Source: Pirellulales bacterium | GTDB taxonomy: Bacteria; Planctomycetota; Planctomycetia; Pirellulales; JALHPA01 | Length of the DNA: 64,000 nt | NCBI GenBank assembly: GCA_033762255.1 | Contig: JANRLT010000044.1 | Location: forward strand, 62,001-126,000 | Direction: 5' to 3' | In this document: piece by piece, positions 1 to 47,885 of the stretch | How positions within the stretch are numbered: position 1 is the stretch's first letter | Layout: the number at the start of each line of letters is the position of its first letter | Position numbers and translations under genes: made by a program | Notes under the pieces: model-generated | What the model saw: the letters and a program-made list of their open reading frames with translations, nothing else | The model's database searches: none | Told to the model about the DNA's origin: nothing

Positions 1-3000
1 CCCCCTCAACCGCTCCATGCTGCAAATTCACCCAATGCGCCCGGGGCGTGGCCAGTAAACTTTCCCACTGGGCCAGCGGCAAACCACGAATTTGGCGGTC
101 CAGCGGCTTCGCTCCCGCCAACCAAGAGAGACCAATTTTTGGCCCAGGCCCCAACTGCGACAGTCGGGCCTGCCATTCACCTAAACGCCGGGGGTCGGGG
201 GACAACAGTTGGGTTTGAGCGGGAAAATCCTGGATCCGGTTGCGTAAAATTCCGGGCAGGCTACCAGCGGCAATTTGAAAATCCAACCGTAACTCGGCGG
301 GGCTGCGCCAATTTGCCTCTGTCCCCCGTGGGCAGGGGATAATCCTGGCCCGCGGGAAGGCCCGCTTCCAACAGGCCAGCAGGCGCGGGTCGCACAATAT
401 GGACACTTCCGCCGCTTGGCGCAAAACATCGGGATAACATGTGGCAAACATCACCTCGTCCCCCAGGCCTTGCTCGGCATGGATCAAGATTCGCTTGCCA
501 GCCAAGGATTCCCCCCGCCACTCGGGTATTCCAACGTCGCGGCACTGCGTGGCGGAATCCGGACACTGCCAACGCCATTCGTAGGCCCGCCAGCCCGCCT
601 GGTAGTTTCCTTGATATAGCCGTGCAAAAGCCAAACTAGCCTGGGCCAACGGATAAGCCCGCGCGCCGCTACAATCCAACGCGCGTTCATAGCAAGCGAT
701 CGCGTCGTCCAATGCCCCTTGTTGGGCCAGCATCATCCCTAACGAATGATGCAGTTCGCGTTGATCGGGCCGAATCCGCAGCGCTCGGCGATAACATTCT
801 TCCGCCTGCGATGCCTCTCCCGCCTGGGCGTAAATTGTTCCCAGCCGCACCACCGCTTCATAACAATCCGCGTCGTGGGACAATGCCGCTTGGTAAGCGC
901 GCTTCGCCTCGGCGAAATTTGTCAGTTTTTCACATATCGTTCCCAAGCGAACGTATGCCGCGGAAGTTGGCTGCGCGATGCATATTTTCTCTAATTGTAT
1001 TTTAGCCGTCGCCCAATCTTGATCCTGGCAGCAAATCTCCGCCAGGAGCGAGCGCGCCTGCAGATTTTCCGCTTTGGCACGCAGCAGTTGTTCCAAAATT
1101 CCCCTTGCGGGGTCGAATTGACACCGGGATATCAACTCCTGGGCCTGCTGCAATAACGTTTGCTGGTTGGCGGGGGTGTTTTGGGTGGCTGCTGTGTCCT
1201 GGGTGGCGGGAGAAAATGGAACTTTTACCCCCGACTGTGAGAGAGCGTTCCTGGCGTCAAGAGCGGGAATGGGGTTGATTGGGTTACTGGAGTTGGAACC
1301 ATGGGGGGGGATGCTGGATTTATCGTTGGTCATCTCACGGGGGGAGATGTTGGTATTTTCGTTGTTTATCTCACGGGGTGGGGTGAGGACATTTTCGTTG
1401 GTCATCTCACGGAGTGAGATGAGGACATTGTGGTCCGACGCGGGGGGTGGGCTGAGAAGCTGTTTTTCCAATTTAGCTAATTCCACGGTTGCGCGTTCAT
1501 AGCCCGGCAAGAGCTCCAAAGCGCGGCGGTAACAGGCGATCGCTTCGTCCGTGCGGCCCGCGCCGGCGTAGGCCACCGCCAGATCACAGCGGCGCTGGGG
1601 GACCATTTCCGCCGTGGCCAAGGCCCGCTGCAGACAGCGTATCGCCAGGTCATAGCGCTCCTGCTTGATTGCCACCAGGCCCAGACAATGCAGCGCGGAG
1701 GGAAATTTGGGGGCGATGGTCAAAATTTGCCGTAACAGCCGTTCGGCTTCGGTGTAATCGGTCCGTTCATATGCTTGTTTGGCCTGTTCCAAAATTTGCG
1801 GAAAACTCTCGATCGTGGCGGCGGCGGAAAATTGCGTATGATCCAGCCAGACATGTTGGGCCAGCGGCGGCAGGGAGGGTTCGTTGATTCGCTCGATAGG
1901 GGGGCAGGGGATTGTTTTCAATAGGTCCGCTTGTGCCACGGCGGGAGCGGCCAAGACTCCGGCCAGCATCCGCCGCATCGCCGCCAGCACGCCGGGCCAC
2001 TGGTTGCGTTGGACCTGGCGAAAGAGCCGCACCGTTTTGTACCAGGGACTTTCGTCGCCGCGAATCATCCACCTCCAAGAGGGAATCATGGGGAGGAGCG
2101 TCCAAGCGGGTGTTCCCACCGCACCCGCCAGATGCACCGTGGCATTTCCAACCGAAATCACCAAATCCAGCGCGGCGATCTTGGCCGCAAAGCTATCCAC
2201 ATCGATAAGCGGATCTCCTTGTTCCCAATCATGCAGCGTCACGCCAAACAAGTCTTGGACTTCTTGGCGATCCTCGCTGGCGTCGCCGTATTGTAAATTG
2301 ATGAATTTAATGCCGGGGGTTTGCAAGATTCCCCCCCACAGATCCAACGGGATGGAACGTTTTCGGCGTTCCAGGGGCTTTCCCCCGGCCCGCCAACTGA
2401 TGCCAATTTTTAATCCCGGACCCAGTGACGCAAATTTTTGCCGCCACGCGTTTACCAATGCGGGATCAGGCGTTAAGAACCGCTGCCGCCGGGGAAACGC
2501 CGACAACGTGGGCCGAAAGTGCAAGGGAAGACTTCCCATGGGTAACTGATAATGAATTTCTTCTTTTACCTGGCAAGGAAGCCGATCTTTGCGCCGCAAA
2601 TAACCATACACAATCGCCTGGGGAAAGCTGCGGCGAAAGAGCTTTTCCAACCGCGGCTCACAGACAATCACCACCCTGCCAGCTCGTTCTAACAGATCGG
2701 GCAAACAGCTACAAAATACAATTTCATCTCCCAATCCTTGCTCGGCATGGACCAGAATCGTTTTGCCCGTTAAATCCTCCCCTTGCCAGCGGGGTTGGGG
2801 ATAATGATCAAATTCGACCTCTCCCACGGGGCCGCGCGCCTCGTACCCTTCCCAACCCGGTCCATAATTTCCCAGGTGCAGATTACAAATCCCCAGGTTC
2901 CACTTGGCCCGCACATAGTTGGGATCGATCGTGAGGGCGTGTTGATATTCGCGAATGGCTTCTTCCAGGGAACCTTGCTCCCGGTAAGAATTTCCCAGGT

Positions 3001-5965
3001 TGTAGCGGGCCAAGACGCAATTTGGCAGGACGGCGACCGCTTTTTGCGCCCAATGCGTGGCGTCCGCATAGCGCTCTTGCTGCTCCATGATGCCGCTCAG
3101 GTTGACATAACTGGCCTGAAAATCGGGCTTCAGCGCCAACACCCGCAAGAAGCACTCATAGGCCAATTTTTGCTCGTGCCGCTCTAAATAGCAGACACCC
3201 AATTCGAACGGCATGGCAAAATTTTGGGGATCGGCGATGCAGGCCTGGCGCAGGCTATGGATCGCGGCGGGCAGATCACCCCGCTTGCGTTGGCCCACCC
3301 CCAGAATCCGCAGTGCGATCGCGTGGCGGGGTTGAATGGCCAGGATACGTTCGGCCAGTTCCGCGGCCGTGGCAAAATCCTCGGCATTGAAGAGCGTGGC
3401 CGCCCGTTCCAGCAATCCCCGCGCGGCGGGAGAGTGTATTTCCGTCTGGGGAAATCGGAACGTGGCATCCGTCGATTGTTCGGCTTGCAGCCAGGGGAGC
3501 TCCTCGGTAATGGACGCCAGCGATGATGGCAAACCGTGATCGGACGGCGTTTGAGCGCCGTCTGGAACTGTCACCGAGCCAACCGAGGAAGAAATTTCCG
3601 ACACAGGGGAACCGGTGCCAAAACTTGCGGGCGACACCTGAGACCGCGCACAGGCAACCTGTGCCCGCAACTGTTCCAGGTTTTGGGCCACGGATTGATG
3701 ATTGGCATCCAGCCGCATAACTTGTTCAAAACAAGCAATTGCCTGCCCATAATCATGCTGCGCTTGCCAGACGCAGCCCAGGTTATTCCAGGCGGCGGCA
3801 TAATCCGGGGCCAAGGCCACCGCCTGTTGAAACGCGGCAATCGCCCGCTCGGGCTGGCGTAGATCAATCGCCACCCCACCTAAAAAATTAAATACCTTGG
3901 GATTGCGGGGCGCAATTTCGCGGGCATGTTCCAGCGTCTCCCAGGCGGCGTTAAAGTCTCCCGCTCCCCGCTGGGCCAGCGCGCAGCCCAGCCACCCTTC
4001 CACCCGTTCCGGCCAACGGGTAATCGTGGTTTGAAACGTGGCCAAAGCCAGGGCGGTATTCCCGCAAGCCAGCGCTGTTTCGGCCAAATCCTGGTGGATG
4101 GCGTAATCATCATTTGATAATTCGCGGGCCCGTTGCAAACTGCGCAAGGCCAAATCCCAGCGTTCGGTCTGCTTGGCAATGTGCGCCAGCAGACTCCAGG
4201 CTGCGGATTGTCGCGGCGCGTGGACTAAAATTTCATCTGTCAGTCGCTCGGCGGCCAATAAATCCCGTTCCGCAAATAATTGCCGCGCCTGGGATAGCGC
4301 CGCAGCAAAATCAAAACTTCCCGTCGGAGTGCGAAATTGCCGGGTATGGTGATTCATAAGCTTTGTTTCCTGGATATCCAACTGACTTGACGAAAATGGC
4401 AACGATACATTATCGAGTGGTGGCTCTGGGCCAGGCTGACTCGTGGCGGCACTAAAAGTAGGCTGTGAATTCCAGTGGGGAAACACTAGCGACAACCGTG
4501 CAAACAAACCCAGCCAGGATTCCCCCGGCGATTGCCGCCAAGCCCTTACCGAGGGATACCAGGGAAGGCTATCCCCGCGTAATTGCCACCTCCAAGAGGG
4601 CACCGTGGGCAAGACCACCCAAGCCGGGATTCCTAACGCTCCGGCTAGATGGACCGTGGTGTTTCCGACGGCAACAACCAGGTCCAGCCCCGCCACGAGC
4701 GCCGCAAAATCCGTGAATCGAGTCAGAGGATCAGCGGCGGGGAAATCATGGATGACAATCCCCGTGTCGCGGGAAAAATCGTTTATTTCCCGCGAGGTTT
4801 CGCCGTACTGCAAATTGATCCACTGCGCGCCGGGAGTTTTTAATAAGGGGAGCCAATCCCGCAATTGAGTGGAGCGGCGAGCCCGTTCACGGGGATGTCC
4901 CCCCGCCCGCCAGGAAATTCCGACCTTGACCCCGGATCCTAGCTGGCCCAGCCGTTGTCGCCAGACGGCGGATAGTTCGGAAGGAAGGGCGAGATAAGCA
5001 TTTTCCCGTGGCGGGATGATTTCCGCGGATTGCAATAATCCGGGCAAATCCCCGGCGGGAAGCCAATAATCCACGCGCGTGTCCAGCAAGGTTTCGACCG
5101 GACAAGGAGCGCGATCCTGGCGGCGCTCGTAGCCGATAACCCGGACGTTGGCAAAGGAGTCTGCGAACAGTTCTTGCAAACGGGGTTCGCAAACCAAGAT
5201 CACCCGTCCCGCATGCCGCGCAAATTCCCGCAGATTACCGGCAAAGAAAATTTCATCACCCAGGCCTTGCTCGGCGACGACCACGATCGTCCGCCCCGCG
5301 GCTTGAGAAAGTCGTGCCAACCGTGGAAAAGCGTAATTATCCTGAACGACTTCGCCAGCCGCTTCCCGCCAGACATATTCCGGCCAGCCCCGGATAAAAT
5401 CCCCCGTCAATAAGTAACATGTCGCCAAATTCCAGTGCGCCGCGGCAAAATCGGGCTGGATCTCTAGAGCCCGCTGGTAACGGTTAATTGCGGTGCCTAC
5501 CTCGCCCAACTGGCGTTCAATATTTCCCAGATTATATTGGGCTATCGCGTGACCGGGATCCACGGAAACAGCGTCCTGCAAACGCAGGCGGGCCTGGACC
5601 AAATCACCACGCTTCTCGCACAGATTTCCCCAATTGACCAACGGCTCCGCCCAGTCCGGGGAGAGTTGATGCGCGCGGGCAAAGGCGTTCGTGGCGGCGG
5701 GCCAGCGCTCGGCGCGTTGCAAGGAACAACCATAGGCAAACCACAATTCCGCGCAGTCCGCCCCATGAGCCAGCGCCTGTTCCAGCACCGCCACACTGAA
5801 TTGCGTCCGACCAGCGGCGCGCAGCTCGGTTCCCAACCGAATGGCCTCGGCCACTTCCGGGCGAATCGCGGATTTGCCGGCGCGTACGAAGAGCGGGGCC
5901 TGGTCCAGCGTATTTTTGGACAGGGCCGTCGTCAGTCTGCAAGGCGCTTCTTGCGCAATGTTCAT
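1..5965 (-). CDS. Giant TPR-glycosyltransferase repeat protein (3' end outside window)
   Basis: One reading frame stays open from an ATG at 5965 to the left edge, at least 1,988 codons; I checked this frame for stops along its length and found none. It holds three modules, each a run of tetratricopeptide repeats followed by a glycosyltransferase-9-like half. The hallmark EQGLGDE appears three times, near residues 232, 1073 and 1830, each followed by a conserved CEPRL or CDPRL segment. The first two modules also show a later HLAGA(L/V)G and SWRW segment; the third is cut by the window edge. Such fusions in planctomycetes are annotated as TPR-containing glycosyltransferases. It lies directly downstream of flagellin on the same strand, behind the flagellin terminator, so flagellin glycosylation is a reasonable inference, not shown. 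An internal Met at 4357 could start a separate module-2 protein, but nothing interrupts the frame there. Confidence 0.85.
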   Translation of the reverse strand, partial: MNIAQEAPCRLTTALSKNTLDQAPLFVRAGKSAIRPEVAEAIRLGTELRAAGRTQFSVAVLEQALAHGADCAELWFAYGCSLQRAERWPAATNAFARAHQLSPDWAEPLVNWGNLCEKRGDLVQARLRLQDAVSVDPGHAIAQYNLGNIERQLGEVGTAINRYQRALEIQPDFAAAHWNLATCYLLTGDFIRGWPEYVWREAAGEVVQDNYAFPRLARLSQAAGRTIVVVAEQGLGDEIFFAGNLREFARHAGRVILVCEPRLQELFADSFANVRVIGYERRQDRAPCPVETLLDTRVDYWLPAGDLPGLLQSAEIIPPRENAYLALPSELSAVWRQRLGQLGSGVKVGISWRAGGHPRERARRSTQLRDWLPLLKTPGAQWINLQYGETSREINDFSRDTGIVIHDFPAADPLTRFTDFAALVAGLDLVVAVGNTTVHLAGALGIPAWVVLPTVPSWRWQLRGDSLPWYPSVRAWRQSPGESWLGLFARLSLVFPHWNSQPTFSAATSQPGPEPPLDNVSLPFSSSQLDIQETKLMNHHTRQFRTPTGSFDFAAALSQARQLFAERDLLAAERLTDEILVHAPRQSAAWSLLAHIAKQTERWDLALRSLQRARELSNDDYAIHQDLAETALACGNTALALATFQTTITRWPERVEGWLGCALAQRGAGDFNAAWETLEHAREIAPRNPKVFNFLGGVAIDLRQPERAIAAFQQAVALAPDYAAAWNNLGCVWQAQHDYGQAIACFEQVMRLDANHQSVAQNLEQLRAQVACARSQVSPASFGTGSPVSEISSSVGSVTVPDGAQTPSDHGLPSSLASITEELPWLQAEQSTDATFRFPQTEIHSPAARGLLERAATLFNAEDFATAAELAERILAIQPRHAIALRILGVGQRKRGDLPAAIHSLRQACIADPQNFAMPFELGVCYLERHEQKLAYECFLRVLALKPDFQASYVNLSGIMEQQERYADATHWAQKAVAVLPNCVLARYNLGNSYREQGSLEEAIREYQHALTIDPNYVRAKWNLGICNLHLGNYGPGWEGYEARGPVGEVEFDHYPQPRWQGEDLTGKTILVHAEQGLGDEIVFCSCLPDLLERAGRVVIVCEPRLEKLFRRSFPQAIVYGYLRRKDRLPCQVKEEIHYQLPMGSLPLHFRPTLSAFPRRQRFLTPDPALVNAWRQKFASLGPGLKIGISWRAGGKPLERRKRSIPLDLWGGILQTPGIKFINLQYGDASEDRQEVQDLFGVTLHDWEQGDPLIDVDSFAAKIAALDLVISVGNATVHLAGAVGTPAWTLLPMIPSWRWMIRGDESPWYKTVRLFRQVQRNQWPGVLAAMRRMLAGVLAAPAVAQADLLKTIPCPPIERINEPSLPPLAQHVWLDHTQFSAAATIESFPQILEQAKQAYERTDYTEAERLLRQILTIAPKFPSALHCLGLVAIKQERYDLAIRCLQRALATAEMVPQRRCDLAVAYAGAGRTDEAIACYRRALELLPGYERATVELAKLEKQLLSPPPASDHNVLISLREMTNENVLTPPREINNENTNISPREMTNDKSSIPPHGSNSSNPINPIPALDARNALSQSGVKVPFSPATQDTAATQNTPANQQTLLQQAQELISRCQFDPARGILEQLLRAKAENLQARSLLAEICCQDQDWATAKIQLEKICIAQPTSAAYVRLGTICEKLTNFAEAKRAYQAALSHDADCYEAVVRLGTIYAQAGEASQAEECYRRALRIRPDQRELHHSLGMMLAQQGALDDAIACYERALDCSGARAYPLAQASLAFARLYQGNYQAGWRAYEWRWQCPDSATQCRDVGIPEWRGESLAGKRILIHAEQGLGDEVMFATCYPDVLRQAAEVSILCDPRLLACWKRAFPRARIIPCPRGTEANWRSPAELRLDFQIAAGSLPGILRNRIQDFPAQTQLLSPDPRRLGEWQARLSQLGPGPKIGLSWLAGAKPLDRQIRGLPLAQWESLLATPRAHWVNLQHGAVEG
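1323..1430. repeat. Three in-frame 36-bp tandem repeats inside the TPR-glycosyltransferase gene
   Basis: The string TCGTTG(GTC/TTT)ATCTCACGG recurs at 1323, 1359 and 1395, an exact 36-bp spacing. This keeps frame and encodes three 12-residue units built on REMTNEN in the linker before the TPRs of module 3. The third unit contains the palindrome CTCACGGAGTGAG, the same core found in the repeats at 57181-57348. Confidence 0.85.
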
Positions 5966-42309: not shown

Positions 42310-42891
42310 TAACCTGCTGAAAAGCATTTTCCGACCCAAGATGCTCTGTATTTGACGAACCAAAAATACAGCTCGCTTTTTTACAATTAGTTTGATTTTA
42401 AACAGGCGGTAAAATTAACTTCGCGCGGCATGGAATTATTAGCGTCGCCGGATTTAACTGAACAGCAATTGAACCGCTTACCCGCACTAATCCTCGCTAA
42501 TCTAGACAGTATTCTCCAACTAGTGGATCGTTCAGATGGATTACGACGGCCAGGGCATTCTGGATTAATGTCGATTAGCCAGGATGCGTATTTTAAATTT
42601 CTTCATCAAAAAAAACATCGTCCACCTCTTTCTGGCAGCCTGTTGAGCAAGCATTTACCGGCACAAAATGTTGTGAATTTGGCAAAGCTAAAATAATGAA
42701 GGGCTGTGCCCGCCGATTGATTTTCAACAGGCACTTAGCCCGGCGGAAGGTCGATCCCGTTATTTTTACGCTCTCTTTGCCACGCGTCGCCCCCCTATGG
42801 GCACGTGTGGGCCTGTACACTTCCCCGCAAATGTTGTAAAAGTAGGGGAGTGGGGAAAAAATCGCTGTATACTCGAATAATCGAGGGGCCG
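42310..42891. other. 582-bp gap before the split-SbcC operon
   Basis: Contains copy B of the 79-bp dispersed repeat. An open frame at 42430-42696 ends inside that repeat, has no ribosome binding site and no family, so I do not call it a gene. The promoter of the following operon should lie between 42711 and 42891. Confidence 0.6.
42632..42710 (-). repeat. 79-bp dispersed repeat, copy B
   Basis: Reverse complement of this stretch matches 26126-26204 at 71 of 79 positions without gaps. It lies about 180 bases upstream of the split-SbcC operon. Confidence 0.88.
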
Positions 42892-44340
42892 ATGATTGTA
42901 AAAATTCTGCTCGAAAACTTTATGTCCCATGCGCGGACGGAGATGGAGCTTTGCCCCGGCCTGAATGTGCTGGTCGGCCCTAACAACTGCGGCAAAAGCG
43001 CGCTCGTCGCGGCGCTGCGCATACTGGCCCATAACGAAAACTCCACTTATGTGACGCGGCACGGGCAAAAGTTTTGTGGCGTGACCCTTACCACCAGCGA
43101 CGGCCATACGATCCAATGGTCGCGAAAAAACTCTCCCAAATACAAAATCAACGGTCAGGATTTTGATCGGCTAAAATCCGGCGCTCCCCCGGAATTGCAC
43201 TCGATCCTACGAATGCCGATCATCGAGTGTGAATCCGACGAATTTGACATCCACTTTGGAGAACAAAAAAAGCCAATTTTTTTGTTGGACAAGTCCCATA
43301 CCAAACAAGCTCAGTTTTTTGCCAGTTCTTCCGACGCGTCCCAGTTGCTGCGGATGCAAAAGCGGCACAAGGATAAGGAATCCGACGCCCACAAACGCAA
43401 AGCCCGTTTGGAAGCTGAATCCCGGCAGTTGAGCAAAGAGCTGGAATCCCTGGGACCCGTGGTGGGAATCGCCGAGCAGTTTGCGCGCGTGACGGCTTGG
43501 CGAAATGAGTTGGCTCTGTTGGCCCAGCGGCATCAGGCCTGCGCGGCGGCCACCGCGGCCCTGGCCCGGCAACGCCGACAAGCGGAATATTACCGCCAGC
43601 AAACCACGATCTACGCTCCCCTGGCCCCTCCCCCCCTGCTCCACCCCGTTGAGCCTTTATCAAACCTCATCCTGGCTATCCGCGCTGGTCAGCGCGCGCG
43701 GGCGTATCGCCAGGGTCAATATGCCTGCCTACAAGCTCTGCCCGCGCCGCCCCAAATGAGGACCACGTCCGCGCTGGGGGATTTGTGCGCAAACTTACAT
43801 GCCGTCCAGGCGAGTCAAGCCTGGGCCAGCGCGCAACTGCGGGCCTTGCGGCAGCTTTCCCGCGCGCCCCAATTAGCGGACACACACGCCCTGGCCACAC
43901 AATTGCAATCGTTAAAAAGTGTCAAAGCAACTAAGCGGCGGCTGACCGGCGAAGTGGCGGTTTATCGCGCCCTAGTCCCCCCGCCGGAACAGCATGCCAC
44001 AGCCAGGCTCGAAGAGAAATTAATACAATTGCGCCAGTCGCGGCGTGCCGCCCTGATGGCCGAGTCCCGTCGCGGGGTTGTGGCAAAAATCGTTCCCCCC
44101 GCGGAACCGGCGGCGGTGGGCGAAATTTCCACGTTCATCTGTCAATTGCGCAAAGCCCACGAGCAGCTCGCGCAGTCCCGGGCAAACGCGCACGCCGCCG
44201 AGCGACAACTTGCCCAGGCGGACCTGGCTATCCGCGCCCAACTGCGGGACAGGCGCTGTCCGACCTGCGGAGCGATGGTGGATGCCGCCACGTTTTTAGA
44301 ACATGCGACGCCGCGCGGCGCGGGGGGGGACCATGCCTGA
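42892..44340 (+). CDS. SbcC/Rad50-like ATPase, N-terminal half
   Basis: A 482-residue protein starting as SbcC/Rad50 do: IVKILLENFMSHARTEMEL, then Walker A GPNNCGKSAL (residues 29-38) and, past 160, a long coiled coil rich in Ala, Gln, Arg and Leu. It ends only about 25 residues after a CPTC pair (Cys456, Cys459), which resembles the zinc hook that normally sits mid-protein. No Walker B or signature motif is present; these are in the gene at 45769. The ATG at 42892 follows GAGGGG closely. The stop overlaps the next gene by 8 bases, so translation is probably coupled. Truncation by mutation is unlikely because the missing half is intact nearby. Confidence 0.85.
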   Translation: MIVKILLENFMSHARTEMELCPGLNVLVGPNNCGKSALVAALRILAHNENSTYVTRHGQKFCGVTLTTSDGHTIQWSRKNSPKYKINGQDFDRLKSGAPPELHSILRMPIIECESDEFDIHFGEQKKPIFLLDKSHTKQAQFFASSSDASQLLRMQKRHKDKESDAHKRKARLEAESRQLSKELESLGPVVGIAEQFARVTAWRNELALLAQRHQACAAATAALARQRRQAEYYRQQTTIYAPLAPPPLLHPVEPLSNLILAIRAGQRARAYRQGQYACLQALPAPPQMRTTSALGDLCANLHAVQASQAWASAQLRALRQLSRAPQLADTHALATQLQSLKSVKATKRRLTGEVAVYRALVPPPEQHATARLEEKLIQLRQSRRAALMAESRRGVVAKIVPPAEPAAVGEISTFICQLRKAHEQLAQSRANAHAAERQLAQADLAIRAQLRDRRCPTCGAMVDAATFLEHATPRGAGGDHA

Positions 44341-45394
44341 CATCGCTTATGCGGGACTTTTGCTCATCGGCGACCCGCACCTGGAAGGACGCGTCCCCGG
44401 CTTTCGCATGGATGAGTATCCCACGGTCATCCTAGAAAAATTAAAATGGTGCCTGGATTACGCCCGCCGGGAATCCCTCCTCCCCGCGATGCTGGGGGAC
44501 TTGTTTGACAAACCGCGCGATAATCCCAATTGGCTGGTCGCGCGGCTGTTGGACATTTTGCCGCCGAACCTATTGGGGATTTATGGCAACCACGATTGCA
44601 AGGATCCCGAGCTAAACGAACATGACACCCTCAGTATTTTGATTAAGGCGGGCCGCTATCGGCTTTTGGACGCGCAGCAACCCTGGCGTGGCGAAATCAA
44701 TGGTCGAGAAGTGATCCTGGGTGGCAGCTCTTATCGGCAGCCTTTACCCACGGGTTATCCGCCGGTTACCGACCAGAGTGGGGCCCACCGCAAACAAACA
44801 CTTTCCCCCGATAACGGCACTCCGGCCGCACCCTCTCGTGGTCGCAATCGCAAAGTCCCCGCGACCGTTGCCACCGAACCATTATTTAAAGAGGCCTGCT
44901 CCTCACGGCCGTTGGTGATTTGGCTGACCCACCATGACCTGACATTGCCGGGATACGACGATGGACGGCACAATTTGTGTGAATTGCCCGGGATTGACCT
45001 GGTGGTCAATGGCCATATTCACCGCAAATTCGCGGAGGTGGCGTGCGGGGGGACCGTCTGGTGCAATCCCGGCAACATCAGCCGCCGCGCGCGGAATGAC
45101 GCCACTCGCCTGCATATTCCGGCGGCTTTACGCGTGGATGTGACCGTGGAGGGATTGCGGCGGCGGTGGATAGATATTCCCCACGCGGGATTTGACGATG
45201 TGTTTTATCCGGCAATCGTTGAAACCGAGGCAACCGGCGGGCCATCGGGATTTGTCGCGGGACTGGCCGAATTACAAGCCCGTCGGACTGCCAGCGGGGC
45301 CGGTTTGCATGAGTTTTTGCGGCTCAATATGGGAAATTTTGAGCCGGACATCGCGCAAGAGATTTGGACTTTAGCCCAAGAAACCACCACCTAA
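44333..45394 (+). CDS. SbcD/Mre11-like metallophosphoesterase nuclease
   Basis: A 353-residue calcineurin-type phosphoesterase with all five motifs: IGDPHL, MLGDLFDKP, YGNHD, WLTHHD and VNGHIHRKF. This is the pattern of the SbcD/Mre11 nuclease, the partner of SbcC/Rad50. A variable region (about residues 145-185, polar and Pro-rich) interrupts the fold. The ATG at 44333 overlaps the end of the preceding gene, with a run of G as binding site. It is shorter than typical SbcD (about 400) and its C-terminus has no obvious capping domain. Confidence 0.88.
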   Translation: MPDIAYAGLLLIGDPHLEGRVPGFRMDEYPTVILEKLKWCLDYARRESLLPAMLGDLFDKPRDNPNWLVARLLDILPPNLLGIYGNHDCKDPELNEHDTLSILIKAGRYRLLDAQQPWRGEINGREVILGGSSYRQPLPTGYPPVTDQSGAHRKQTLSPDNGTPAAPSRGRNRKVPATVATEPLFKEACSSRPLVIWLTHHDLTLPGYDDGRHNLCELPGIDLVVNGHIHRKFAEVACGGTVWCNPGNISRRARNDATRLHIPAALRVDVTVEGLRRRWIDIPHAGFDDVFYPAIVETEATGGPSGFVAGLAELQARRTASGAGLHEFLRLNMGNFEPDIAQEIWTLAQETTT

Positions 45395-45404
45395 GGAGTC
45401 GAAC

Positions 45405-45716
45405 ATGAATACGGCGGAACCGCAATCGATTGAACAGCTAAAAGAATGGTATCTCAGGCTGGATAAACAAAAGACCGTGGCGGAAACCCAAGCTCAAGCC
45501 GCCGCCCAGCAATTGGAGCAATTGCAAGCAGCGGCCCGGAAAGAGTACGGCACGGACGATCTGGAACAACTGGAAGCCTTATTAGAAAAGATGAAAGCCG
45601 AAAATGAAGAAAAACGTGCGGCTTATCAGGCCACGTTAACCAGCATCGACTTGGAATTAGCCGCGGTGGAGCGGGAATTTGCCGCCAGTAAAGAAAACTC
45701 GCCGGGCGCAAAATAA
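45405..45716 (+). CDS. Small coiled-coil protein of the split-SbcC operon
   Basis: A 103-residue protein that is almost all heptad-like helix (EQLKEWYLRLDKQKTVAET, QQLEQLQAAARKE, LEQLEALLEKMKAE). AAGGAG six bases before the ATG; it starts 10 bases after the nuclease gene. No family recognised. Its place between the two ATPase halves suggests it contributes coiled-coil length or links the halves; this is inference. Confidence 0.75.
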   Translation: MNTAEPQSIEQLKEWYLRLDKQKTVAETQAQAAAQQLEQLQAAARKEYGTDDLEQLEALLEKMKAENEEKRAAYQATLTSIDLELAAVEREFAASKENSPGAK

Positions 45717-45768
45717 GCTCGCGGAAAGCCTGTTTACAACCTTATTGCTGTTTTTGTGTGTGGACCTT

Positions 45769-46446
45769 ATGACGTCATCTGATTTTTCCCCCCTGGACGA
45801 GCCTAGCCACCTGGGCCGCCGCGTGGAGCAACTTAACCTCGAGCGGGAATTGCGCGTGCGCCGGTCGCAGGAATTAGCCGTGGAATTCGCCGAACTTAAT
45901 TATTATCTCGAGTTGGCTCCACGCGTGGGCCAGCAGCTTAATGAATTGGCAAAGAATTTATTTAACCAACTATTGGATGTCGTCACTAGCAAATTAACGC
46001 TGGCCCTGCAGGAAATCCTCGACCAACCGATCACGCTTAAAACCACGGTGGAGCAATCGCACAAGGCGGCTAGCGTGGAGTTTTATATCGAACGCAATGG
46101 CCAAAAAGAAGATATCATGGACGGCCAGGGAGGCTCCGTGGCAAATATCCTGAGCGTGGGCCTGCGCATGTTTGCCCTGGCGACGCAGGACCCGGCCCGA
46201 CACCGGCCATTTTTGGTTTTGGATGAGCAGGATTGCTGGCTGCGGCCCGATCTGGTGCCCGGGTTGGTCAAGATGATTCGCGACGCGGGTAAAGCGTTGG
46301 GCTTTCAGGTGTTGATGATTAGCCACCACGATATTAGCGTGTTTGAGCGGTACGCCGACCGGATTTATCAATTACAGCCAAAGGGCGAAAATGGGGTGGA
46401 AGTCCGCTTGCACAACGCGTCCCCGGCGGTGGTAGATCAATTATGA
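45769..46446 (+). CDS. SbcC/Rad50-like ATPase, C-terminal half
   Basis: A 225-residue protein with the C-terminal lobe of an SMC/Rad50 ATPase: a helical lead-in (residues 15-85), the signature region DGQGGSVANILSVGLRM (119-134, in place of LSGGE), Walker B FLVLDEQD (148-155, Glu153 as candidate catalytic base) and the switch histidine in MISHHD (His187). No Walker A is present, so it can only act with the N-half. The ATG at 45769 is 52 bases after the coiled-coil gene; an in-frame TTG at 45679 overlaps that gene and is less likely. Confidence 0.82.
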   Translation: MTSSDFSPLDEPSHLGRRVEQLNLERELRVRRSQELAVEFAELNYYLELAPRVGQQLNELAKNLFNQLLDVVTSKLTLALQEILDQPITLKTTVEQSHKAASVEFYIERNGQKEDIMDGQGGSVANILSVGLRMFALATQDPARHRPFLVLDEQDCWLRPDLVPGLVKMIRDAGKALGFQVLMISHHDISVFERYADRIYQLQPKGENGVEVRLHNASPAVVDQL

Positions 46447-46537: not shown

Positions 46538-46680
46538 CCTCCCGCCTCTCGTCTCCCGCCTCCCGCCTCTCGTCTCCCGTCTCCCGTCTCCCGTCTCCCG
46601 TCTCCCGTCTCCCGTCTCCCACCTCCCGCCTCCCGTCTCCCGTCTCCCGCCTCCCGTCTCCCGTCTCCCGTCTCCCGCTC
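46538..46680. repeat. Heptamer array CCGTCTC, about 20 units
   Basis: About 140 bases of almost pure pyrimidine on the plus strand built from CCGTCTC with variants CCGCCTC and CCACCTC. It fills the gap between two convergent genes, the SbcC C-half and the isoaspartyl peptidase. Shorter runs of the same unit are at 14075-14101 and about 47985-48000. Confidence 0.95.
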
Positions 46681-46682
46681 CA

Positions 46683-47885
46683 TTACTCTTGCCGCGCGAG
46701 CGCTTCATCCCGGTAAATTGCCGTAAAGATCTTTCCCGTCGCGGTCACATAGCCCCGGTACATGCCCGGACACAAAGCCGACATGGCAAACGCGCAGTTA
46801 CCCCGCGGATCGAGCGCAATCAGCCCCCCCACGCCCCCCGCTTCATCCGGAAGACTGGCGATCGTGCCGCTGGCGGCGGTTGGGACATCCTGGCCGCCAT
46901 ACAGCATCCGGGCCGCCACGTCGTACGCCGCAACATGCCTGATAAATAGCTCCCCCGTCCCCGTACAACTCACGCCGCACGCCCGATCATCCGCGTATGT
47001 CCCCGCGCCAATCAGCGGGCTATCGCCAATCCGCCCCGGTAGCTTGTGGGTGTGGCCCCCGGTGGAAGTTCCCGCCGCCACCGTAGACGGGCCAAATGTT
47101 GTAGAATACGCATTCGCGGCAAATTCTTGATCAAGATCCTTTAGAACCCCGGGGCCTATCGCCGCGACCGCCCCCACCGTGCCAAACCGCGCGCTGGGTG
47201 GAGCATGCTCGGCGAAGAGCCGTTGTTGGTAGCGTTCGATTTGTTTCAGGCGATAAGGGGTCCAAAAGTAAATGTTCTCCACGCGTTCGATGCCATGCCG
47301 AGCGCGCACGTCTTCGCGCAAGACGTACGCCTCGGCCCCCGCACCAACCAGCAATACATGCCGCCGGTCGGGCATTTCCAGGACCGCGCGGGCAGCGGCG
47401 ATGGGGTTTTTCAGGTGCTTGACGGCGGCCACGGCTCCGGCGGGTTTACGTGGATCGCGGCGGCCAAGGCCCGCCCACGGCATGGCGTCCGCCGGGGGAT
47501 AGTGCCCGGTGGAGGGGTTGTCCGGGGGGTCCATGCGGCCTTGCATGATCGCGGCGTCCAGTTCAATTTCGCCATCGGTGTTAAAGGTTCCTCCCCGCCC
47601 CGCGTTAAACAGTTCGCAGTCCTCTAGCACGCGGATCGCGGCCTCGACCATGTCCAGGGTTGTGTTATCCGCGGCAAAGTCGCGTGGTTCCTGCTGAAGC
47701 CGATTTCGCAGGACGGCGTATCCCGCCGCCAGTGCCCGCGCGAGCTCCCGTTCGTAGTCTTGCCGGGTGTGGCCGTATTCGGCCATCTCAGCGCTGGACA
47801 AGACCCCCGCTCCGCCATGAATGGCCAACACGACCGGGTCAGTGGCGCGGGGGATGGGTGATTCGTGCGGAGTGTTTTGAGCCAT
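46683..47885 (-). CDS. Isoaspartyl peptidase / L-asparaginase (Ntn-hydrolase)
   Basis: Type III plant-type asparaginase that self-cleaves to expose a catalytic Thr and hydrolyses isoaspartyl dipeptides. The 400-residue protein has LAIHGGAGV at the start, LFNAGRGGTFNTDGEIELDA, nucleophile Thr236 in FGTVGAVA, and GTSTGGHTHKLPGRIGDSPLIGAGTYAD. About 25 extra residues separate GTVGAVA from GTSTGG compared with E. coli IaaA. Enzymes of this type can split beta-Asp-Arg, the product of cyanophycin breakdown, which fits the cyanophycin synthetase 6.4 kb away, but a general role is equally possible. Confidence 0.9.
   Translation of the reverse strand: MAQNTPHESPIPRATDPVVLAIHGGAGVLSSAEMAEYGHTRQDYERELARALAAGYAVLRNRLQQEPRDFAADNTTLDMVEAAIRVLEDCELFNAGRGGTFNTDGEIELDAAIMQGRMDPPDNPSTGHYPPADAMPWAGLGRRDPRKPAGAVAAVKHLKNPIAAARAVLEMPDRRHVLLVGAGAEAYVLREDVRARHGIERVENIYFWTPYRLKQIERYQQRLFAEHAPPSARFGTVGAVAAIGPGVLKDLDQEFAANAYSTTFGPSTVAAGTSTGGHTHKLPGRIGDSPLIGAGTYADDRACGVSCTGTGELFIRHVAAYDVAARMLYGGQDVPTAASGTIASLPDEAGGVGGLIALDPRGNCAFAMSALCPGMYRGYVTATGKIFTAIYRDEALARQE

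Follow-up and report, generated by a model that had tools for sequence, protein, structure and literature searches.

The DNA analysed here (the window) is a 64,000-nucleotide stretch of contig JANRLT010000044.1 from a Pirellulales bacterium, and it carries a cassette of four same-strand genes, g1 to g4 (Table 1). The original prediction, made from the sequence alone, was that these genes encode a Rad50/SbcC-type ATPase split into two genes (g1 and g4) around its nuclease (g2), the halves assembling in trans. Re-reading of the four open reading frames (ORFs) at 42892-46446 agreed with this layout, including the spacings of -8, +10 and +52 bases, and the start of g1 is backed by an alignment with 48 homologues. 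In Pfam, g1 matched AAA_15/AAA_23 and g2 matched Metallophos, while g4 gave a weak SMC C-terminal match and g3 had no match over the cut-off. The complete system was named by none of NCBIfam, PHROGs and PADLOC for g1-g4; in PHROGs, the halves are separate families, with g1 matching phrog_16465 and phrog_1499 and g4 matching phrog_15167.

Table 1. Positions in the window of the four cassette genes and of the mapped parts of g1 (res., residues)
Feature	Position	Strand	Description
g1	42892..44340	+	N-lobe of Rad50 type with Walker A; base coil at res. 148-241; arm built from 39-residue helical units; CxxC of the zinc hook at res. 456-459, close to the C-terminus (482)
g2	44333..45394	+	Metallophosphoesterase, Mre11/SbcD-like; metal and catalytic motifs complete
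g3	45405..45716	+	Helical, 103 residues, length nearly fixed; conserved YGTDD..L motif
g4	45769..46446	+	C-lobe of Rad50 type, preceded by an N-terminal helix; signature GQGGS, Walker B VLDE and switch His (SHH) present, Walker A absent
Modular arm of g1	43633..44247	+	Predicted helices g1 res. 254-281, 293-320, 332-359, 371-398, 410-452
Zinc-hook CxxC (CPTC)	44257..44268	+	Near the free C-terminus of g1

The motifs on which the split had been proposed were all recovered in the alignments, which show little or no variation at the catalytic positions of the two lobes and the nuclease. In g1, the glycine and lysine of the Walker A motif (GPNNCGKS) and both cysteines of the zinc hook (C456/C459) are invariant across 49 homologues. 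The phosphoesterase motifs of g2 are complete and invariant (D14/H16, D56, N86-H87-D88, H200 and H228-x-H230), corresponding to the SbcD/Mre11 set D-x-H, GD, GNHD, H and GHxH, and a g2 profile retrieves SbcD/Mre11 structures. The 103-residue helical g3 shows a conserved YGTDD..L motif in its alignment. A signature region, an invariant Walker B LDE and the SHH switch (83/83 members) were found in g4, and Walker A is absent from it. The GQGGS signature and the hook at a free chain end had been regarded as unusual; both are indeed present, but they are hallmarks of the whole family and not specific to the window. GQGGS occurs in 76 of the 83 g4 members, the remainder having other GxGG variants, and the LSGGE-type signature of SbcC/Rad50 is not found in g4. 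In the g1 homologues with a CxxC, the chain ends 19-46 residues past the start of that motif.

Across genomes, g4 was found in 105 contigs (80 kept), chiefly from Planctomycetota and Thermodesulfobacteriota; Bacillota, Chlamydiota, Verrucomicrobiota, Poribacteria, Spirochaetota, Sumerlaeota, Myxococcota and Pseudomonadota contribute one or two cases each. When 83 loci (the 80 kept contigs and three short ones) were searched for the ordered gene set, g1-g2-g3-g4 lay on one strand in 63, and median spacings across loci were -8, -11 and +3.5 bases. Two further loci (L071, and L076, which has no g3 in the BLAST table) probably have the same order, the sort being blurred by over-long frames; eight are truncated by the start of their available sequence, and ten contain g4 alone, two of which (L022 and L026) have no upstream room. 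Because the gene order is kept across phyla, chance or sequencing error is ruled out as its source. A fusion of g1 and g4 was looked for in close relatives, none of which carries the Walker A lobe and the signature/Walker B lobe on one chain; the fusions seen on distant plasmids are swapped in order.

The structural models assign both halves to the Rad50/SMC class of heads. The AlphaFold (AF2) model of g4 (mean predicted local distance difference test score (pLDDT) 90.5) has a helix at 12-84 followed by the C-lobe, and its residues 62-216 align with P. furiosus Rad50 738-882 (VIA-align, 1f2u_B; Z 12.8, root-mean-square deviation 2.9 Å, 142 residues), while g1 1-134 aligns with Rad50 2-149 (VIA-align, 1f2u_A; Z 11.3, 2.9 Å, 124 residues). 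In these models, g1 and g4 jointly cover the whole Rad50 head as complementary halves. The g1 N-lobe by itself is equally near to SMC and RecF heads, and it is assigned to Rad50 on account of its hook, its partner nuclease and g4. The top Foldseek matches include separate half-chains of Rad50 crystals, and 1f2u_A and 1f2u_B, as two separate halves of a crystallised head, show that a Rad50 head need not be a single chain. The half-chains in 1f2u, 1ii8 and 9a9j, in which N- and C-lobe chains likewise form one head, are a laboratory-made split, whereas that of the cassette is natural and conserved.

Genomes in which g4 is unlinked speak to assembly in trans. In seven of eight orphan-g4 genomes, g2 sits on a different contig; the regions concerned hold g1-g2-g3 in L100, L101 and L103 and g2-g3 at a contig end in L102, and L097-L099 keep g1-g2 with g3 undetectable. 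Overall, among loci of sufficient sequence length, g3 is missing only from L076 and the Pirellula-type genomes; in the latter, none was found beside either g1-g2 or g4. In the planctomycete family f21, g2 and a strong g4 match are co-present in the same 9 of 81 genomes, outside of which there is only one weak g4-like match (E 6e-5). The retention of g1-g2(-g3) together with g4 in spite of the lost linkage is most simply read as assembly in trans, and along with the complementary match to the Rad50 halves these observations bear out the predicted split around the nuclease.

The coiled coil ascribed to g1 holds for its base and not for most of its length. In the AF2 model (mean pLDDT 80.1; predicted template modelling score 0.36), the N-lobe is followed by the base-coil helices 148-186 and 188-241, then by helices starting every 39 residues (254, 293, 332, 371 and 410), and finally by the CxxC, with inter-helix packing not resolved in the model. 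The arm thus consists mostly of tandem 28-residue helices with Pro-Pro linkers every 39 residues, and the unit consensus, PPxLxDTxxLxxLIxxLxxAxxxLxxAxxxRxxALxxLxx, shows a single heptad-like stripe. Among the 49 aligned orthologues, the arm spans 216-530 residues in 39-residue steps. The distance from the invariant Q125 to C456 clusters at 254 + 39k residues (254, 293, 332, 371, ~409 and ~527), one clade being offset by 8 (340, 379). The resultant at period 39 is 0.88; these homologues are related by descent, and the p-value of the periodicity was not used. The occurrence of both odd and even unit counts disfavours a strict up-down hairpin array. The unit was not found in one canonical SbcC or one YhaN-like protein compared, and it is weak or undetected in the phage and plasmid forms described below. 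In Solidesulfovibrio (L069:5782-8682), the g1 frame has 967 amino acids, roughly double the usual number, and shows 39-residue units in its last third only; it may have a misplaced start codon or an extra domain.

A profile of g1 positions 399-470 retrieves the Rad50 zinc-hook structures 6zff and 1l8d; unlike the hook of SbcC/Rad50, however, that of g1 does not form the tip of an antiparallel coiled coil within its own chain. Two g1 orthologues (L010:6395-8662 and L025:429-1886), which were excluded from the g1 alignment, have Walker A and the 39-residue units and lack the CxxC. Their arms finish in a shared, distinct C-terminal region (AIL[YF]PxELAE...), which is perhaps a replacement dimerisation domain.

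More distant relatives occur on plasmids and in huge phages. On plasmids of Bosea, Alteromonas and Pseudomonas, a small gene precedes an ATPase of 546-637 amino acids and a gene in the nuclease position. The first part of this ATPase is g4-like and the second g1-like, with a CxxC at its end (a swapped g4::g1); the small gene is detectably g3-like in Bosea and is recognised in Alteromonas and Pseudomonas by its position and a similar motif. The plasmid order g3-g4-g1-g2 is cyclically equal to that of the window, and the presence of g4::g1 in one chain places the two lobes together. In two of the three plasmids (L086:8677-9453 and L087:8832-9728), the gene in the nuclease position has no recognisable Pfam phosphoesterase and is seemingly degenerate, so that the ATPase there may work without a nuclease. 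On huge-phage contigs (up to 485 kb), g1-like proteins are mostly 363-500 amino acids long with a CxxC near the C-terminus, and g2 lies near many of them; L123 and L125 also carry g3 and g4 in the same order, and L126:4846-7305 encodes an 820-amino-acid g2::g1 fusion (Mre11-like nuclease and split Rad50 N-lobe) with g4 separate. Sequence and profile searches of viral contigs with g4 returned no relatives, the phage g4 genes having surfaced through the g1 search and a record-by-record search, with g4 in 4 of 13 further phage records searched whole; a fused g4::g1 protein was not found on viral contigs. A mobile-element route for the split system is plausible; the tree of relatives is unrooted, with very long phage and plasmid branches, and does not give the direction of transfer.

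Break repair or DNA defence had been suggested as the role, of which repair is favoured by the gene context and defence, for which no context was found, is not. No SbcC or SbcD over the NCBIfam cut-off was detected elsewhere in the genome of the window. In family f21, SbcD-like nucleases (TIGR00619 matches with E <1e-7, a threshold set after inspection of the table; mostly non-canonical SbcD, over the cut-off in 5/81, e.g., L136) occur in none of the 9 cassette genomes and in 47 of the 72 without the cassette (Fisher p 2e-4, uncorrected for genome relatedness). Within genus g282 the two are swapped, G400 having the nuclease and no cassette and G432 an intact cassette. In two cases inspected, the f21 nuclease looks YhaO-like in sequence, lying beside a YhaN-like ATPase in L134 and a helicase-like gene in L133. 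The latter is a planctomycete without the cassette, where positions 659-5192 hold a 1082-residue helicase-like gene with the SbcD/YhaO-like exonuclease right behind it. Phylum-wide, canonical SbcD is over the cut-off in 39 of 294 genomes and in 0 of 11 strong cassette genomes, which are too few for significance alone. The exclusion of SbcD-like nucleases in f21 and the absence of SbcC and SbcD over the cut-off favour a repair role.

Taken together, the most likely explanation, with a probability of about 0.7, is that the cassette encodes a four-subunit relative of SbcCD/Mre11-Rad50, an ATP-gated DNA-end nuclease with heads formed in trans and hooks on open arms. From the observed gene order, motifs, co-retention, complementary lobe folds and quantised arm length, we infer complex formation, stoichiometry, zinc binding, nuclease activity, the role of g3 and a function in repair. 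The g1 N-lobe and the g4 C-lobe would fold into one Rad50-type ATPase head without a covalent link, and two heads would sandwich two ATPs, with Walker A of one against GQGGS of the other. The paired heads would hold a DNA end in their clamp and control its cleavage by the phosphoesterase g2. Each g1 would carry a one-way arm of 39-residue helical units ending in CxxC, a zinc ion probably being shared by two CxxC from two g1 chains, and the most likely place for g3 is against the base coil, whose length is fixed (g1 148-241 with the g4 N-terminal helix). The function would most likely be DNA-end processing in repair, replacing an SbcCD-type nuclease. For a more specific version, in which two-lobe heads bear the hook on single, non-returning arms and the variable count of 39-residue units is a length ruler, we see an even chance. 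Several points weigh against the SbcCD-like explanation: as GQGGS differs from LSGGE, ATP hydrolysis is uncertain; as L010 and L025 lack the CxxC, the hook is not essential; g1 and g4 fall below the curated cut-off for SbcC (TIGR00618) and g2 below that for SbcD (TIGR00619); and the f21 comparison is limited by genome relatedness and by the non-canonical character of most nucleases counted.

An alternative hypothesis, raised in part by the original prediction, is that the return coil is supplied by g3 and the N-terminal helix of g4, the arm being a normal antiparallel coiled coil as in Rad50, only cut in three. It would account for the collinearity of g1, g3 and g4 with the N-coil, C-coil and C-lobe of Rad50, for the coiled-coil-like sequence of g3 and for the helical N-terminus of g4. 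However, the arm varies over 216-530 residues while g3 (92-118 residues; rho 0.06 with arm length, p 0.70) and the g4 N-terminal stretch remain constant, so that g3 cannot pair with the whole arm, which moreover is broken by Pro-Pro every 39 residues; a return coil along the full arm was thus not upheld, and this hypothesis appears unlikely. Anti-phage or anti-plasmid defence, with the Rad50-like ATPase sensing foreign DNA ends and the phosphoesterase destroying them, much as Lamassu, Gabija and MADS use SMC/ABC ATPases, is an unlikely role. The patchy distribution of the cassette (3/58 relatives in one sample, 12/294 in another) and the weak resemblance that PADLOC finds between g1 and g4 and defence-system ATPases such as AriA, GajA and mad3 would fit such a role, but these PADLOC matches are mainly to generic ABC lobes, with none for g2 and coiled-coil stretches only for g3, and no single system in PADLOC-DB had all of its components matched. 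In addition, no recurrent neighbour family beyond common or syntenic genes was found around the cassette loci, whose surroundings in the window and relatives are of the housekeeping type; in genera g45 (3/3) and g46 (5/5), every member sampled has the cassette; huge phages carry the system themselves; and the mutual exclusion with SbcD-like nucleases in f21 also argues against defence. A defence system was rejected, its component models being unmatched and its context missing.

The phage and plasmid relatives raise the further possibility, which we regard as rather doubtful, that a phage-derived recombination module comparable to T4 gp46/gp47 was domesticated by bacteria, in which case the bacterial copy may serve replication-fork recombination and not end repair. 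Consistent with this possibility are the fused forms on megaplasmids and the split homologues of g1, g2, g3 and g4 on contigs of huge phages, L123 and L125 having them in cassette order, whereas the great distance of these copies, their lack of clear 39-residue units and the unresolved direction of transfer speak against it. A decayed or mis-sequenced sbcC would explain the split and nothing more; it is ruled out for all practical purposes, since over 60 loci share the split and keep their catalytic motifs.

The cassette resembles SbcC-SbcD/Rad50-Mre11 in its two ATPase lobes with the folds of P. furiosus Rad50, its zinc-hook CxxC, its Mre11-type phosphoesterase and the adjacency of its genes. 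It differs in that the lobes are on separate chains around the nuclease gene, no coil returns from the hook, the signature is GQGGS and not LSGGE, an extra g3 and a 39-residue modular arm are present, and the proteins score below the NCBIfam cut-offs. In all likelihood it works like SbcCD, yet it lacks the single chain, closed coil and signature of SbcC/Rad50. Lamassu LmuB, PtuA, RecF and RecN likewise have SMC/ABC-type heads, but these are single-chain, with different nucleases or none. Mre11-Rad50 fusion proteins (Mimivirus R555 and relatives) also have a rearranged architecture and are sporadic in phages and plasmids (PMC3175470); they are comparable to the g2::g1 fusion of L126, yet they join the nuclease to Rad50, the opposite of the cut Rad50 described here. 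Divergent oceanic SMC proteins (PMC12153180), which are hinge-less and without CxxC, were considered and are not equivalent. In the portion of a jumbo-phage paper considered here (PMC7824862), SbcCD is practically universal and a split form is not mentioned. The open-access papers searched contain no report of an SbcC/Rad50 that is split, two-chain or circularly permuted.

Rad50/SbcC and SMC proteins carry both lobes on one chain, joined via a folded-back coiled coil. As the same four genes occur in the same order in several phyla, cells can apparently run such a machine without the closed loop regarded as basic to it, and this natural, conserved system makes the purpose of the covalent loop and return coil directly testable. 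The quantised arm lengths provide a natural length series for the tethering hypothesis, and nature also supplies a control in the plasmid form, whose swapped order links the lobes at the opposite side. If such an open-arm machine exists, it would tether DNA, or pass its ATP state on to the hook, with no closed coiled coil of the kind that Rad50/SMC proteins form within one chain.

The neighbours of the cassette in the window encode a metallo-beta-lactamase fold protein, an HMA protein, an asparaginase and an HtrA-like protease. An 88-residue ORF without a Pfam match (42430-42696) lies 5' of g1, outside the conserved set, and a low-complexity tandem repeat (CCCGTCTCCCGTCT-like; 46540-46690) is located immediately 3' of g4.

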